Shown here piece by piece: positions 15,299 to 20,912 of a stretch of DNA of 64,000 nt. Source of the stretch: Neolewinella aurantiaca (GTDB lineage: Bacteria; Bacteroidota; Bacteroidia; Chitinophagales; Saprospiraceae); assembly GCF_008014675.1 (NCBI RefSeq), contig NZ_VOXD01000012.1, positions 62,001-126,000 on the forward strand, written 5' to 3'. Made by a program: the position numbers and the translations under genes. The notes below the pieces were generated by a model, which searched no databases, was not told the origin of the DNA, and worked only from the letters and a program-made list of their open reading frames with translations. Within the stretch, counting starts at the first letter, position 1. Each line of letters starts with the position of its first letter.

Positions 15299-16513
15299 CT
15301 AAGCGCCCGGCAACCGCTGAATAACATTCCGCCCCAACTGGAACATATGTACTTCGTCGGGGCCATCCGCAAGGCGGATGCTGCGGGCGTAGGCCCAGAA
15401 CGCAGCCAGCGGCGTATCCGCTCCGGAAACGCCCATACCGCCGTGCGCCTGAATGGCGCGGTCAATCACCGTTTGCGCCATCGTGGGCGCAACGATTTTG
15501 ATCATCGAGACGAGCTCCTTTGCGTGTTTGATCCCTTCGCGGTCGATCTTATCCGCCGCGGAGAGGGTCAGCAGGCGGGCCTGCTCGATCTCGCACGCTG
15601 AGCGTGCGACTTCCTGGCGGATGCTGGAAAACTTGCTCAGCTCGCGGCCGAAGGCCGTGCGGGACTGCACGCGCGCACACATCAGTTCCAGGCTCCGCTG
15701 CGCGGCACCGATCAGGCGCATACAGTGGTGGATACGACCGGGGCCGAGGCGCCCCTGAGCGACCTCGAAGCCACGCCCTTCGCCCAGAATTATGTTCTCC
15801 ACCGGGACGCGGACATCCTTCAGTTCTACTTCGGCGTGGCCGAAGGGTGAATCGTAGGTATGGAAGGCATCGAGCGGGCGAACGATGCGGACACCCGGCG
15901 TAGCGGCCGGGACGAGGATCATACTTTGTTGCTGATGCCGGGCGGCATCAGGGTCTGTTTTGCCTATCACGATGTACATCTTGCAGTCGGGGTGCATCGC
16001 GCCCGTACTCCACCATTTCCTGCCGTTGACGACGTACTCGTCTCCCTCGCGGACGATGCTGGTACAGATGTTAGTCGCATCCGAGCTGGCTACTTCGGGC
16101 TCCGTCATCAGGAAAGCGGAGCGGATTTCTCCGGCCAGCAGGGGTAACAACCATTGCTGGCGCTGCGCCGGAGAGCCATATTTGGCCAGCACTTCCATAT
16201 TACCCGTGTCGGGCGCGCTGCAGTTGAATACTTCGGAACACCACAAATACCTCCCCATCTCTTCGGCCAAAGGCGCGTACTCGAGGTTGGTCAGCCCGGG
16301 GCTGTACTCGCCGTATTCTTCGGGCAGGAAGAGGTTCCAGAGTCCGGCGGCGCGGGCTTTTTCCTTCAGGCCGGGCATGGCGGGATGAACCTGCCAGAGA
16401 TTCTGGCTCGTCCAGGCTGTGTATTCTTTGTCCAGCGGAGCGATGTGCTCAGCGATGAAAGCTTTCAGCCGGGCTAGCAGGTCTTTTGTTTTTTGGTTGT
16501 ATTCGAAGTTCAT
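15299..16513 (-). CDS. Acyl-CoA dehydrogenase family protein (ACAD11/LvaC-like)
   Basis: 404 residues, the full length for the family. The N-terminal helical domain ([19 protein letters not shown]) leads to the FAD region with [18 protein letters not shown] and GRKWWSTGA. The C-terminal part has [20 protein letters not shown] and [18 protein letters not shown]. It lies downstream of an aminoglycoside-phosphotransferase-fold kinase; the same two domains are fused in eukaryotic ACAD10/11 and adjacent as LvaA/LvaC in Pseudomonas, where the kinase phosphorylates 4-hydroxyacyl-CoA and the ACAD converts the phosphoester to an enoyl-CoA. The ATG at 16513 is used; the frame stays open upstream only through a tandem repeat. 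Confidence 0.88.
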
Positions 16514-16547
16514 GGTGATAATTTTTCGCTTCGCGGTATTTCCGGTG

Positions 16548-16564
16548 GGCGGGGCCGCGGGTGC
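16548..16564 (-). repeat. 17-bp dispersed element, two mismatches
   Basis: GGCGGGGCCGCGGGTGC, reverse orientation, 35 bases upstream of the dehydrogenase ATG. Confidence 0.6.
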
Positions 16565-16617
16565 AGTGTAGTGGATGGAGGAGCAGTGGCGGGTTAGCCG
16601 CAGTGATGATCTCCGGG

Positions 16618-16822
16618 CTTCGCTCGAGGCTACGCCTCTTGGCTTCGTCTGGGGGGGATCGTGTCCACCCCGGACTTCGCTCGAGGCTGACGCCTTTTGC
16701 TTCGTTTGGGGGGATCGTGTCCACCCTGGACTTCGCTTGAGGCTGACGCCTCTTGGCTTCGTCGGGGGGGGGCGTGTCCACCCCGAACTCCGCTCGAGGC
16801 TACGCCTCTTGCTTCGTCCGGG
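16618..16822. repeat. Tandem repeat, 56-57 bp unit, about 3.6 copies
   Basis: Units begin at 16618, 16675, 16731 and 16788 with CTTCGCTCGAGGCT or a close variant. Each holds a small palindrome (GAGGC-TAC/TGAC-GCCTC) and most a GTGTCCACCC stretch. Units differ by several substitutions. The array separates two genes of one apparent operon. Confidence 0.85.
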
Positions 16823-16848
16823 GTTAAAACGATTTGATCCCTCCGGGA

Positions 16849-17886
16849 TCATACGTTCAGGATAGTGGTGCCCAGGCGGGCGAACACTTTGGAGATTTCG
16901 CCGAACATTTCCATGCGCTTGTCTTTGGTTTTTCCGGCGACGAAGCGGGCGTAGAGTTGCTGGGTAATGACGGCGGATTTATAGCAGGCGAAGGCTTCGT
17001 ACCAGTCCATCCGGCTGAGATCGAGGCCTGAATGTTCGGCGTAGCGTTCTTTCAGCCAGGCTTTGGTGGGCCAGTTACCCTGCATCATCGAGGTGGGCAT
17101 CTGCTGCCCGTTGGGCAGCATTTCCGGCCAGTAGCTCAGCAGGCCGCCCAGATCGATGAGCGGGTCGCCGAGCGTTGCCATATCCCAGTCGAAGACGGAG
17201 CTTACTTCGTCCGGGTTATCGGCCTGAAACTGGCAGTTGTCGAACTTGAGGTCTCCGTGGACAATGCTTATTCTTTGGGGCTTGGGGACATCCTTCAGCA
17301 GGTTTTCCATCAGCTGATCCATATGCTGGTTTTCTTGCAGTTTAGCGAGGCTCCAGCGTTTGGCCCAGCCTTTGAGTTGGCGATCAACGAAGCCGTCCGG
17401 TTTACCGAGGTCCGACAGGCCCGCGGCCGCGACGTCTACAAGATGGAGGTCGGCGCAGACCTTCATCAGTGCGTCGGAGAGGCGCTCGGGGGCGTTTTCG
17501 AAACTGGTAAAGTTTTCGGGCAGCGTAGTACGGATCACCACTCCTTCGCGGCGTTCCATGACGACGAAGTCGCTGCCGATCACTTCGTGATCGGTGCAGA
17601 GATGAAAGGCATTCGGCGCTGCCGGAAAGCTGGGATGGAGGGCGGAAAGTACTTTATACTCCCGCTTCATATCGTGAGCACCGGGAGCGATTTTACCAAA
17701 CGGAGGTCTCCGAAGGACGAGTTCCCGATCGCCGAAGCGCAGCAGATAAGTCAGGTTCGCGTGGCCGCCGTGGAACTGGGCGTAAGAGAAAGCTCCGGTC
17801 AGTTCCGGGATTTCCCGGCGCAGGTAAGCTTCGAGTTGTGGCCACGGCAGCTCTTCGCCGGGACGGATGTTTTTGTAATCTTGCAT
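16849..17886 (-). CDS. Phosphotransferase family protein (APH fold; LvaA/ACAD10-11 N-domain-like)
   Basis: 345 residues. Kinase motifs of the APH/choline-kinase fold are visible: a nucleotide-binding hairpin ([21 protein letters not shown]), the catalytic loop [12 protein letters not shown] and the metal-binding [17 protein letters not shown]. This is the version that occurs with acyl-CoA dehydrogenases rather than with antibiotic resistance. The likely role, by analogy with LvaA and the N-domain of ACAD10/11, is ATP-dependent phosphorylation of a 4-hydroxyacyl-CoA. The ATG at 17886 begins a typical N-terminus ([20 protein letters not shown]). Its first 20 codons and upstream region are duplicated at 21205-21329. 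Confidence 0.87.
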
Positions 17887-18074: not shown

Positions 18075-20000
18075 CTACTTTGCCTCTAAGGCTCGCAAAA
18101 GCTCCCCTTCGAAAACATCAAACCCAACAAGAAGCTGATCGATGACCACCAAAAATTGTGACTGGTTATCGGTCTCCAGCGCAGTTTTTCCTTCATCAAA
18201 GGCCTTTGCCAGTTCATCAAGCAGGAAAACCCGCATCGTGGAAATCAGATTATGTTTCAGGTCGCCAAATTCTTTTTGAGAAAACGAAAACTTACAAGCT
18301 CCTAATATATCCTTGGCCTCCGCTACATCGTCTTTAATGATTCTCAGGAAAGCGAGGTACTCCTCTTCATCTCCCTCAAATATTTCCTGAACCCTGGAAA
18401 AGTCCACCGCTCTGGTCTCCGTCGCGGGTTGGCCCGTCTGCTGTTCTGGATTTCCTTCTCCTTCTTGCTCGCCGAATCTTTTTATGATGTGATGCAGATA
18501 ACCCGGCTCGAATGGTTTTATCACCAACCCGTTAATGCCGGCTTCCAGCATCTGAGCGGTCACCTCCTGGGATGCAGAGGCGGAAAGCGCAATAAGAGGA
18601 AGATCCTTGATGGGGGCATCAGGATGAGACCTGATGCGCCGGGCCAATTCGTAGCCGTCCATTCCGGGCATCTTCAGGTCAAGAAGCACGACATCATACG
18701 TATTAGTTTCTAACAACTTCAGCGCTTCCTTTCCGGAGGTAGCCTGGTCGTACAGGAGCTTCCATTCCGAGAAGTACCGGGCATTGATGAGTAAGTTCGA
18801 GCGGACGTCATCTACGTTCAGTACCCTGATGTGGTTCAATGGAGGCAATCCCTCTGCCGGCAAACCGGGCCGTTGATCAATTGGCAACTCTTCCGCCGAA
18901 GCCGCCTTCAGCGTAATGGTAAAGTAGAATTCGGTGCCTTCCCCAGGCTTACTGTTAATCTTTAGATCCGCCCCATAGGCTTCCAGGATTCTCTTGCATA
19001 TCGCAAGGCCAAGGCCGGTCCCACCAAAGTCGGCCTGCGTTTTCTCACTTGCCTGGACAAAGGGCTCAAATATATACTTCATCTGGTCTTCGGCAATGCC
19101 CATACCGGTGTCACGGACGCGGAAACTTAAGTTATGTAGCCCATCCTCGTCTTCTTCGTGGGTCAGGCTGATAACGATCTCCCCCTCACTGGTAAATTTC
19201 ACAGCGTTACTCACCAGATTGTTAAGGACCTGGGTAAGTTTCCCCCCATCAGCCAGCAGGAGCGGGACATTGCCAATTGGCAGAACGGATCGGAGTACAA
19301 CCCCCTTTTCCTTACAGGTTGGCCGGTAAGTATCCACTACTTGCTTCACCAGCTGGTCGCCGTACATCGGGCGCTCGTCCAGGGTCGTCATCCCGGCTTC
19401 CAATTTACTGACATCAAGAATATCATTCACGATGTTCAACAAACTGTTACCTGCGCTACGAAGTACCTGAATGAATTCCAACTGGTCCGGGCGGGGATCA
19501 TCCTTAAACAAAAAATTCCCCGCTTCCAGAATGGCATGGAGCGGTGTACGAATTTCGTGGCTCATGGTCGAAATAAACGTCGACTTTGTCTTATCCGCTG
19601 TTTCCGCCTGCAGCCGAGCACGTTTCAATTCCCGTTCGTATTCCTGCCGTTCCCTGGAAGGAAAGGCCACGTAAATGTAACCTCCTCCGGCAGAGAGTAA
19701 ACGACTTACGTTGACGATGACCGGGTGACGGGCTCCTGTCTTCCCCACCATTTCAAAATTAGTTTCCCTGAGCTCACCTTCCAGTGCCAGCGCCGGAGCA
19801 AAGTGAGCCTCGAAGTATAACTTTCCGCCAACAGATAATAGTTCGTAGAAATACCGCTCCCCAACGAGTTCCTCACTGGTATATCCCAATAGTTCCCGCA
19901 GGAGCTTATTGACATAAGTGACCTTTTGCTTTTCATCGGTCCATGCCACTCCGCATGGTAACAGTTCATAAGCCGCCCAATCAGATTCCTCGGGGTACAT
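18075..20000 (-). CDS. PAS hybrid histidine kinase with receiver and Hpt-like tail
   Basis: 641 residues, no membrane segment. Order: PAS domain (about 8-118; ends YIYVAF), short coiled coil, HisKA with His148 in STMSHEIRTPL, HATPase with NAVKFT, RDTGMGI and GGTGLGL, receiver domain (about 390-510) with Asp441 in LLDLKMPGMDG and Lys495 in IKPFEP, and a helical C-terminus (about 533-641) where His583 in LKHNLISTM could be an Hpt-type phospho-site, though the usual HxLKG is degenerate. The gene lies 114 bases downstream of an RsbQ-like hydrolase gene on the same strand; in Bacillus RsbQ works with the PAS domain of RsbP. The effector of the kinase is not in the window. Confidence 0.9.
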   Translation of the reverse strand: MYPEESDWAAYELLPCGVAWTDEKQKVTYVNKLLRELLGYTSEELVGERYFYELLSVGGKLYFEAHFAPALALEGELRETNFEMVGKTGARHPVIVNVSRLLSAGGGYIYVAFPSRERQEYERELKRARLQAETADKTKSTFISTMSHEIRTPLHAILEAGNFLFKDDPRPDQLEFIQVLRSAGNSLLNIVNDILDVSKLEAGMTTLDERPMYGDQLVKQVVDTYRPTCKEKGVVLRSVLPIGNVPLLLADGGKLTQVLNNLVSNAVKFTSEGEIVISLTHEEDEDGLHNLSFRVRDTGMGIAEDQMKYIFEPFVQASEKTQADFGGTGLGLAICKRILEAYGADLKINSKPGEGTEFYFTITLKAASAEELPIDQRPGLPAEGLPPLNHIRVLNVDDVRSNLLINARYFSEWKLLYDQATSGKEALKLLETNTYDVVLLDLKMPGMDGYELARRIRSHPDAPIKDLPLIALSASASQEVTAQMLEAGINGLVIKPFEPGYLHHIIKRFGEQEGEGNPEQQTGQPATETRAVDFSRVQEIFEGDEEEYLAFLRIIKDDVAEAKDILGACKFSFSQKEFGDLKHNLISTMRVFLLDELAKAFDEGKTALETDNQSQFLVVIDQLLVGFDVFEGELLRALEAK

Positions 20001-20114
20001 ATTGACAGTTTTATTTGAAATACTGGTCTAAACCTCCAAATCTGGCCGCTCTGCAGGCCGGGTGATAAGGCCCTGAAATAAAAGTTGAACATCTTCACTT
20101 TCTGAGTGATTACA

Positions 20115-20912
20115 TTAACCATGCTCAAGATAGCTTTTTATAGCGGCGATAGTTACCTCAGGTGCACTAATGTTTGGGCAGTGGCCCCGGGCGTCCAACA
20201 AGACGAATTTACTACCTGAAATGTGTTTGTGAATATACTCTCCAACCTGACGGGGAGCAATAATGTCTTCTTCCGTTTGGAGAATAAGGGTCGGTGTGGT
20301 AATACGGGAAAGGTCTTCACGATTGTCCGCAGTAAACGTAACCCGGGCGAAGAAGCTGGCAATTTCGGGGTTCATGGAGCAGAAACTAGCCGTCAGTTCT
20401 TCGCCAAGTGCCGGCTGCTCAGCGTTCCCCATGATGCTCGGAGCCATGCTTTTTGACCATGAGATGTAATTTTCTCCCAATACTTCCAGTAACTCCTCGA
20501 TGTCTTCCCTGGTAAATCCTCCGTAGTAGTCCCCATCATTAATGTAACACGCCGAAGGGCCGATCATTACCAGCTGACTAAACAAATCCGGACGTTGGAT
20601 GGAAGCAAGCCCGGCAATCATGGCGCTCACGGAGTGACCGATGTGGATAACGTCGCTAAGGCCCAATTCCTCACAAATCCCGATCACATCCTTTGCGTAT
20701 CCATTGAGGTCCTGATGGCTGGCACGACTGAAGCACTCAATCGGATAATTCCCCATGCCGGCAATGTCGTAGGTTATTACCCGGTAATGGGGGGAGAAAG
20801 CCGCTACCAGGTAGCGGAACATTGCCTGTCCGCAGCCGAAACCATGACTCATCAGCATGGTACGTTCGCCTGAACCCGATACCGTTACACTGTGCAACTT
20901 CCTGTAATTCAT
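20115..20912 (-). CDS. RsbQ/KAI2-like alpha/beta-hydrolase
   Basis: 265 residues, cytoplasmic. The sequence matches the RsbQ family along its length: SHGFGCGQAMFRYL, IGHSVSAMIAGLAS, VMIGPSACYINDGDYYGGF, and ARGHCPNIS. The triad Ser94, Asp216 and His244 is spaced as in B. subtilis RsbQ (96/219/247, from memory). RsbQ binds or hydrolyses a small hydrophobic molecule and is needed for signalling by the PAS domain of RsbP; plant KAI2/D14 receptors belong to the same family. Here the downstream gene is a PAS hybrid kinase, not a PP2C phosphatase. An ordinary esterase role is possible but less likely given the neighbour. Confidence 0.87.
   Translation of the reverse strand: MNYRKLHSVTVSGSGERTMLMSHGFGCGQAMFRYLVAAFSPHYRVITYDIAGMGNYPIECFSRASHQDLNGYAKDVIGICEELGLSDVIHIGHSVSAMIAGLASIQRPDLFSQLVMIGPSACYINDGDYYGGFTREDIEELLEVLGENYISWSKSMAPSIMGNAEQPALGEELTASFCSMNPEIASFFARVTFTADNREDLSRITTPTLILQTEEDIIAPRQVGEYIHKHISGSKFVLLDARGHCPNISAPEVTIAAIKSYLEHG

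Follow-up and report, generated by a model that had tools for sequence, protein, structure and literature searches.

A probable split ACAD10/11-type pair in Neolewinella aurantiaca: a kinase and an acyl-CoA dehydrogenase with a predicted role in 4-hydroxyacyl-CoA breakdown

Two adjacent genes and the repeat between them

The stretch of Neolewinella aurantiaca DNA analyzed here (64,000 nucleotides of contig NZ_VOXD01000012.1; hereafter the window) carries a gene for a kinase of the APH fold and, 335 bp downstream on the same (-) strand, a gene for an acyl-CoA dehydrogenase (ACAD) (Table 1). Both genes were found where the original prediction had placed them. Pfam assigned the kinase to APH (PF01636, 151 bits) and the ACAD to Acyl-CoA_dh_1, Acyl-CoA_dh_M and Acyl-CoA_dh_N (130, 65 and 51 bits, respectively). 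The pair had been read as a split form of ACAD10/11, the mammalian enzymes of 4-hydroxy-acid breakdown, and this reading is weighed below against the family placement of both proteins, their active-site residues and their distribution.

Table 1. Coordinates of the kinase-ACAD pair and of other genes discussed (SDR, short-chain dehydrogenase/reductase)
Feature	Position	Strand	Remarks
APH-fold kinase gene	16849..17886	(-)	345 aa; predicted 4-hydroxyacyl-CoA kinase
ACAD10/11-type ACAD gene	15299..16513	(-)	404 aa; predicted 4-phosphoacyl-CoA phosphate eliminase
Intergenic stretch, kinase to ACAD	16514..16848	(-)	335 bp; contains 57-bp tandem repeat
RsbQ/KAI2-type alpha/beta hydrolase and PAS-histidine kinase-receiver hybrid	18075-20912	(-)	hydrolase directly upstream of hybrid
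SDR	contig C10 of the same genome, 92917-93684		unlinked to the pair; no obviously related neighbour by eye

A longer open reading frame of 517 aa, with its start at 16852 and overlapping the kinase stop codon, also covers the ACAD gene. Its first 113 residues correspond to intergenic DNA, which includes a tandem repeat of 3.8 copies of a 57-bp unit (16613-16823), and the repeat array stays open in the ACAD frame. Since 23 of the 28 ACAD matches among relatives of the strain begin at residue 1 of the 404-aa form, the ATG at 16513 (MNFEYNQ...) was taken as the likely true start. The ACAD protein probably excludes the repeat array, and the 517-aa frame is probably not the real product. The intergenic gap of one relative (G008, with an ACAD 96% identical) measures 132 bp and holds no tandem array like the 57-bp one. 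The doubled 57-bp unit, when searched against the genome of the strain, gave no match outside the array itself.

Family placement and active-site residues

Among solved structures the window ACAD matched 4hr3 (441 bits), mouse ACAD11 (8v3u, 416 bits) and human ACAD11 (2wbi, 413 bits), and the next chain after this group, the best conventional ACAD, scored 136 bits. It is 51% identical to the ACAD domain of mouse ACAD11 and 58% identical to a Burkholderia guangdongensis protein. The closest named ACADs, from a search of named records that may omit very near ones, belong to Saprospiraceae-type Bacteroidota (71%). In a tree of 61 rows (380-440 aa, thinned at about 72-74% identity; quick search with the Shimodaira-Hasegawa-like approximate likelihood ratio test, SH-aLRT, as sole support and no bootstrap) the window ACAD fell among Bacteroidota rows, inside a clade with support 96 that includes ACAD11, 4hr3 and the Burkholderia protein, and the conventional-ACAD outgroup was separate from this clade.

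Mutation of R626, H634 and R637 in mouse ACAD11 is reported to show that these residues matter for the ACAD step, which their substitution abolished; they are described as holders of the 4-phosphate, formed by an HCMR motif plus an upstream Arg, and D753, an Asp replacing Glu, is named as catalytic (PMC12440821). By alignment, R255, R260, H263 and R266 of the window ACAD are the equivalents of mouse R626, R631, H634 and R637, the phosphate-site motif spanning residues 255-266, and D383 in ADGPDE is the equivalent of D753. The motif was present in 165 of 167 ACAD rows, a count that is biased because the rows were picked by similarity (at least 220 bits). One of the two rows without it ends at a contig edge; the other, from Rhodococcus (L248), has RLGGGRIHHAMR and retains R, R, H and R. 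Judged by sequence, the window ACAD belongs to the ACAD10/11 group with strong support.

Some of the ACAD matches carry labels that are probably wrong. In the Sulfitobacter pontiacus plasmid hits H3, H4 and H30, the PLSDB table puts a vanG glycopeptide resistance label under the ACAD match, which is probably a false resistance call. The ACAD of a metagenome-assembled genome deposited as Klebsiella pneumoniae (L114) groups with alphaproteobacterial rows inside a Bacteroidota-rich clade, and this genome is probably a mislabelled or contaminated bin.

The best structural matches of the kinase were 9o56 (276 bits), 3dxp (148 bits) and the ACAD11 kinase domain (142 bits), the next chain scoring 23 bits. 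NCBIfam models of other kinases, including resistance kinases, gave at most 28 bits, far below their cut-offs. The window kinase is 32% identical both to ACAD11 and to the B. guangdongensis kinase. It has GGHANLTY at residue 40, the catalytic D212 in HGDLKFDN, and N217; D212, N217 and R169 align with D220, N225 and R176 of ACAD11, and R75 aligns with the ACAD11 Arg beside the alphaC Glu (R86 in the paper, residue 84 by our count). R169 and R75 correspond to the pair of arginines with CoA contacts in the ACAD11 model.

The kinase family is split by motif. ACAD11 and 3dxp carry GQSNPT, as do Burkholderia and many Proteobacteria; the window kinase, 9o56, Bacillaceae, Deinococcus and other Bacteroidota carry GxxNLTY. 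Among 146 kinase rows the NLT form was seen in 92, the NPT form in 41 and neither pattern in 13; these rows, like the 167 ACAD rows, are not independent and include some cut copies of one gene. Kinase trees were built by a quick search, with no bootstrap; their rows were 300-420 aa long and had been thinned at about 72-74% identity. An unrooted one with 80 rows separated 29 rows of the NPT branch, with ACAD11, from the window kinase (SH-aLRT 99.9), and the window-type kinases grouped with a Rhodococcus opacus kinase (support 98) which, at 50% identity, is the closest kinase outside the window's relatives among the plasmid hits. In approximately unbiased (AU) tests, a tree in which the 10 window-type kinases were forced to group with the NPT rows was weakly rejected (p-AU 0.02). 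A single family of Bacteroidota kinases (the 10 window-type and 16 other-type rows) was rejected as well (p-AU 6e-7), the second type being itself poorly supported (39). These p values are optimistic, as an initial tree had already been inspected when the groups were defined. Making ACAD11 the sister row of the window kinase gave p-AU 4e-9, but this result is uninformative and was given no weight, since two rows drawn from among close kin are rejected anyway.

The unrooted tree and the AU tests used the full window kinase and left out two divergent kinases and the outgroup. A tree rooted on two APH paralogues from the same genome, which used a cut copy of the window kinase from locus L001, had very long outgroup branches, and its rooting was not relied on. 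These quick trees do not settle the deep order of the kinase branches. LvaA, the kinase of the Pseudomonas putida levulinate operon, is reported to share just 29% identity with the kinases of ACAD10/11 (PMC11342911) and may therefore itself fall outside the ACAD11 branch. A further very divergent kinase branch, with neither the NLT nor the NPT motif, was seen near the same ACAD family in alphaproteobacterial loci (L118, L121, L125 and L249).

The phylogenetic comparison with ACAD10/11 proposed as a check thus gave two answers: the ACAD lies inside the ACAD11 clade, and the kinase lies outside the ACAD11 side of its tree. The idea of an ACAD10/11-like pair was strongly supported for the ACAD half, in clade and in active-site residues with the exception of one pocket proline. 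For the kinase half it was supported in function, by co-occurrence and shared operons, and failed by branch. With the kinase sequence placed away from the ACAD11/Burkholderia side, the pair can be called the halves of ACAD10/11 in a literal sense for the ACAD only.

Co-occurrence and companion genes

The distribution of both genes was determined in 60 relatives (the genome of the strain included). The ACAD was found in 28 and the kinase in 30, with both in 28, and the relatives hold two kinase types, one 57-100% and the other 34-42% identical to the window kinase. The two genes are adjacent on one strand in 13 of the 28 ACAD genomes and adjacent but divergent in one (G035). In a phylum sample of 148 genomes, each at least 90% complete, the ACAD was found in 9, the kinase in 12 and both in 9, and in all nine cases the genes share a strand and are no more than 2.1 kb apart. 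Fisher tests, uncorrected for relatedness, gave p values of 8e-15 for the relatives and 3e-12 for the phylum sample. The pairing of kinase and ACAD is more than chance. Three phylum genomes had the kinase and no ACAD at the threshold (G256, G353 and G257); the stretches fetched from G256 and G353 do show an ACAD next to the kinase (L301 and L302), indicating that these two misses are a threshold effect. Since genomes without the pair show at least three ACAD-like candidates each (first-look candidates, not checked singly), lack of the pair is probably not merely lack of ACADs.

A third sample consisted of 80 named loci found by motif; these were the best 80 of 594 and no random draw, and some flanks were shorter than 10 kb. 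Calling open reading frames by length is unsuited to GC-rich loci, and tblastn was used for this sample. The kinase lay within 10 kb of the ACAD in 48 loci. The genomes of the other 32 could be searched in 31 cases, and 29 of the 31 carried the kinase elsewhere.

An SDR dehydrogenase follows the pair closely. It was found in 28 of the 60 relatives (E<=1e-70), 27 of them shared with the 28 ACAD genomes, the exceptions being G049 (ACAD, no SDR) and G028 (SDR, no ACAD). G014, which belongs to the same genus, has none of the three at the thresholds applied. The SDR adjoins the ACAD or the kinase in five relatives (G033, G025, G019, G027 and G034; loci L039, L041, L042, L043 and L077) and stands beside genes of the pair in Flavobacteriaceae/Polaribacter loci L107, L112, L113 and L115; a match to the same SDR family above 150 bits was present in 21 of the 80 named loci. 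The gene order is SDR, window-type kinase, ACAD in G034, and SDR, ACAD, other-type kinase in G025 and G019. That the same three-gene set holds either kinase type is the best sign that both Bacteroidota types do the same job. The original prediction had noted that no other lva genes lie nearby. This is correct for the neighbours read, although an SDR that may carry out the LvaD step is encoded elsewhere in the genome.

Clusters with the same ACAD family, an SDR and a phosphotransferase were also found in Pseudoalteromonas, Deinococcus and Cytobacillus, the kinases of the last two being of the GxxNLTY type like that of the window. The Pseudoalteromonas cluster is annotated as ACAD, SDR, kinase, histidine phosphatase and SDR, where SDR is the annotated name and the family was unchecked. 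The Deinococcus cluster is annotated as SDR, MaoC, thioesterase, gluconolactonase-family protein, hypothetical protein and ACAD, followed by a HicBA pair, SDR, kinase, YetF, histidine phosphatase and alpha/beta hydrolase, genes that would be in keeping with the use of lactones or hydroxy acids. In these clusters the SDR and accessory genes stand together, whereas in the genome of the window only the kinase and the ACAD do. Histidine phosphatase, present in the Pseudoalteromonas and Deinococcus clusters, was considered as a further component in the window's group and rejected, being found in only 3 of the 60 relatives (E<=1e-20).

Proposed function and alternatives

Gene content, family placement, conserved residues, co-occurrence and the gene order of relatives, all observed here, lead us to read the pair, with a probability of about 0.75, as a split two-gene ACAD10/11 system of the LvaA plus LvaC kind, in which a 4-hydroxyacyl-CoA kinase and a 4-phosphoacyl-CoA eliminase would feed beta-oxidation. 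Both reactions are proposed by analogy with the literature on ACAD10/11 (PMC12440821, PMC11342911) and on LvaA/LvaC (PMC6692424). The 4-hydroxyacyl-CoA would be supplied by a CoA ligase or by the SDR from the 4-oxo form; the SDR on contig C10 probably interconverts 4-oxo- and 4-hydroxyacyl-CoA, or acts on another hydroxyacyl-CoA. The kinase would phosphorylate the 4-OH group. The ACAD would then hold the 4-phosphoacyl-CoA via R255, H263 and R266, with D383 taking the alpha proton; electrons would go to FAD and return, so that FAD use is transient, and phosphate would be expelled to give a 2-enoyl-CoA for ordinary beta-oxidation. ACAD11 is reported to need redox-active FAD although its net reaction is redox neutral (PMC12440821).

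Several points weigh against this reading. By sequence the kinase falls outside the ACAD11/Burkholderia side of the kinase tree. The pair is not always linked: the two genes are on different contigs in 6 of the 28 ACAD relatives and on one contig without being neighbours, up to about 20 kb apart, in 8, and two relatives (G010, which is 55% complete, and G028) have the kinase and no ACAD. The histidine phosphatase of clusters elsewhere is absent from the genome of the strain (E<=1e-20). Co-occurrence by itself cannot name a substrate; 4-hydroxy fatty acids or gamma-lactones are the presumed natural substrates. Finally, a pocket proline (human Pro463, mouse P462), reported as a mark of ACAD10/11 and said to widen the pocket (PMC11342911), is replaced by Ser93 in the window ACAD. 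Over the 167 ACAD rows this position held S in 58, P in 40, A in 14, H in 10, G in 5 and D in 1; the pattern left 39 rows unscored, and P thus stands at 40 of 128 scored rows. One relative (L003), whose ACAD is 92% identical, has P. The proline is no strict mark of the ACAD10/11 group, and since the position varies among relatives Ser93 was given little weight.

The same phospho-elimination could act on another hydroxyacyl-CoA (5-hydroxy, branched, terpenoid or sterol-derived), with the kinase of the other branch setting a different substrate range. The kinase branch, which is not that of ACAD11, fits this explanation, as does the nearest outside kinase, that of R. opacus, which clusters with a lipid-transfer protein, a thiolase, a CoA-transferase and an F420-dependent oxidoreductase. 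On the other hand, the same family of ACADs is accompanied, often together with an SDR, by NPT-branch kinases and by those of the second Bacteroidota type, and the active-site residues of the window ACAD are the ACAD11 set. Moreover, in ACAD10-deficient cells it was reportedly the phosphorylated product of the 4-hydroxy form that was followed, with 5- and 6-hydroxyhexanoate as contrast (PMC11342911). Taken together, we consider a substrate of this other kind unlikely.

The R. opacus plasmid locus (L248, 4670-7047), in which the ACAD with the variant motif lies beside the kinase, could represent a further pathway that uses the same chemistry.

An ordinary acyl-CoA dehydrogenase beside an unrelated small-molecule (aminoglycoside-type) kinase would suit the Pfam names by themselves, APH being a broad fold. 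This is very improbable, given that the window ACAD has residues that conventional ACADs are said to lack, that the kinase scores no more than 28 bits with resistance and other APH-type models and chains, and that co-occurrence and gene order hold across phyla.

Under the preferred reading of a split ACAD10/11 system, the closest known systems are the mammalian and the lva enzymes. The pair shares with mammalian ACAD11/ACAD10 the ACAD clade, the phosphate-site and catalytic residues of the ACAD, and the kinase residues D220, N225 and R176 (PMC12440821, PMC11342911), but it consists of two genes, has a kinase of another branch and carries Ser for the pocket proline. With LvaA and LvaC of P. putida it shares separate kinase and ACAD genes and presumably the same two reactions (PMC12440821, PMC11342911, PMC6692424), whereas no lvaB, lvaD, lvaE, transporter or LvaR-like regulator was recognised among the window neighbours read. 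One lva cluster on record lacks lvaB and includes a gene for a histidine phosphatase (PMC6692424). The LvaA/LvaC orthologues of Burkholderia (B. guangdongensis L176) are likewise adjacent and have the same ACAD motif, but their kinase is of the GQSNPT branch and an enoyl-CoA-hydratase-like gene lies upstream. The bacterial orthologues are reported to resemble ACAD10/11 more than they resemble other bacterial enzymes, and Burkholderia proteins to replace the ACAD10 domains (PMC11342911).

Pseudomonas was searched for direct anchors. The ACAD was found in 116 of 119 genomes, and second copies were tried as LvaC anchors and set aside: in 11 regions from 8 of these genomes inspected by eye no lva operon was recognised, most ACAD neighbourhoods lying outside this sample. 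A kinase search of 118 Pseudomonas genomes yielded no LvaA anchor, its secondary matches being only partly inspected. An ACAD-kinase-phosphatase set (L244) was seen in Pseudomonas during the search for LvaC anchors.

Split bacterial orthologues have already been published, and the Bacteroidota pair adds to a known type of system. Among the papers listed from a limited collection, none dealt with the Bacteroidota pair or with a division of the kinases into two branches, and the word Bacteroidetes does not occur in either of the two ACAD10/11 papers (PMC11342911, PMC12440821). The part that could be new, with LvaA unplaced, is an exchange of kinase partners. We tentatively suggest, as an idea somewhat short of even odds, that the ACAD10/11-type eliminase is a fixed core served by several kinase branches, and that in the window's lineage the kinase was swapped for a branch shared with Actinomycetota (Rhodococcus); bacteria would thus place at least two 4-hydroxyacyl-CoA kinase families, with differing substrate ranges, before one and the same enzyme. 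Such an exchange, if true, would show which half sets substrate choice.

The 4-hydroxy acids come from lipids, lactones and plant-derived levulinate, and the mammalian enzymes that break them down reportedly remained without assignment until 2024-2025 (PMC11342911, PMC12440821). Redox-neutral FAD use could be studied on simpler proteins with the split form, which is widespread in bacteria and accompanied by an SDR, and the distribution of pair and SDR predicts which bacteria may be able to use gamma-lactones and 4-hydroxy fatty acids.

The neighbours read around the pair are an esterase, a PAS histidine kinase and an RsbQ-like hydrolase. A lactone-sensing circuit joining the pair to the hydrolase, which would make the 4-hydroxy acid, and to the histidine kinase is suggested by the row of four genes on the (-) strand and by the matches of the hydrolase to RsbQ (265 bits) and to D14L/KAI2 chains (about 195-209 bits), but it is the least probable explanation and was rejected on distribution, RsbQ being found in 9 of the 60 relatives (own included), without ACAD and kinase in G014 and G048, on another contig than the ACAD in G001, G004, G011, G013, G016 and G017, and in company of the PAS kinase, a homologue of which adjoins it in 4 of the 5 loci checked, that of the window among them. 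The usual partner of RsbQ is the RsbP phosphatase. Here the hydrolase and the hybrid kinase look like a sensing module of the RsbQ type that is coupled to a two-component kinase.

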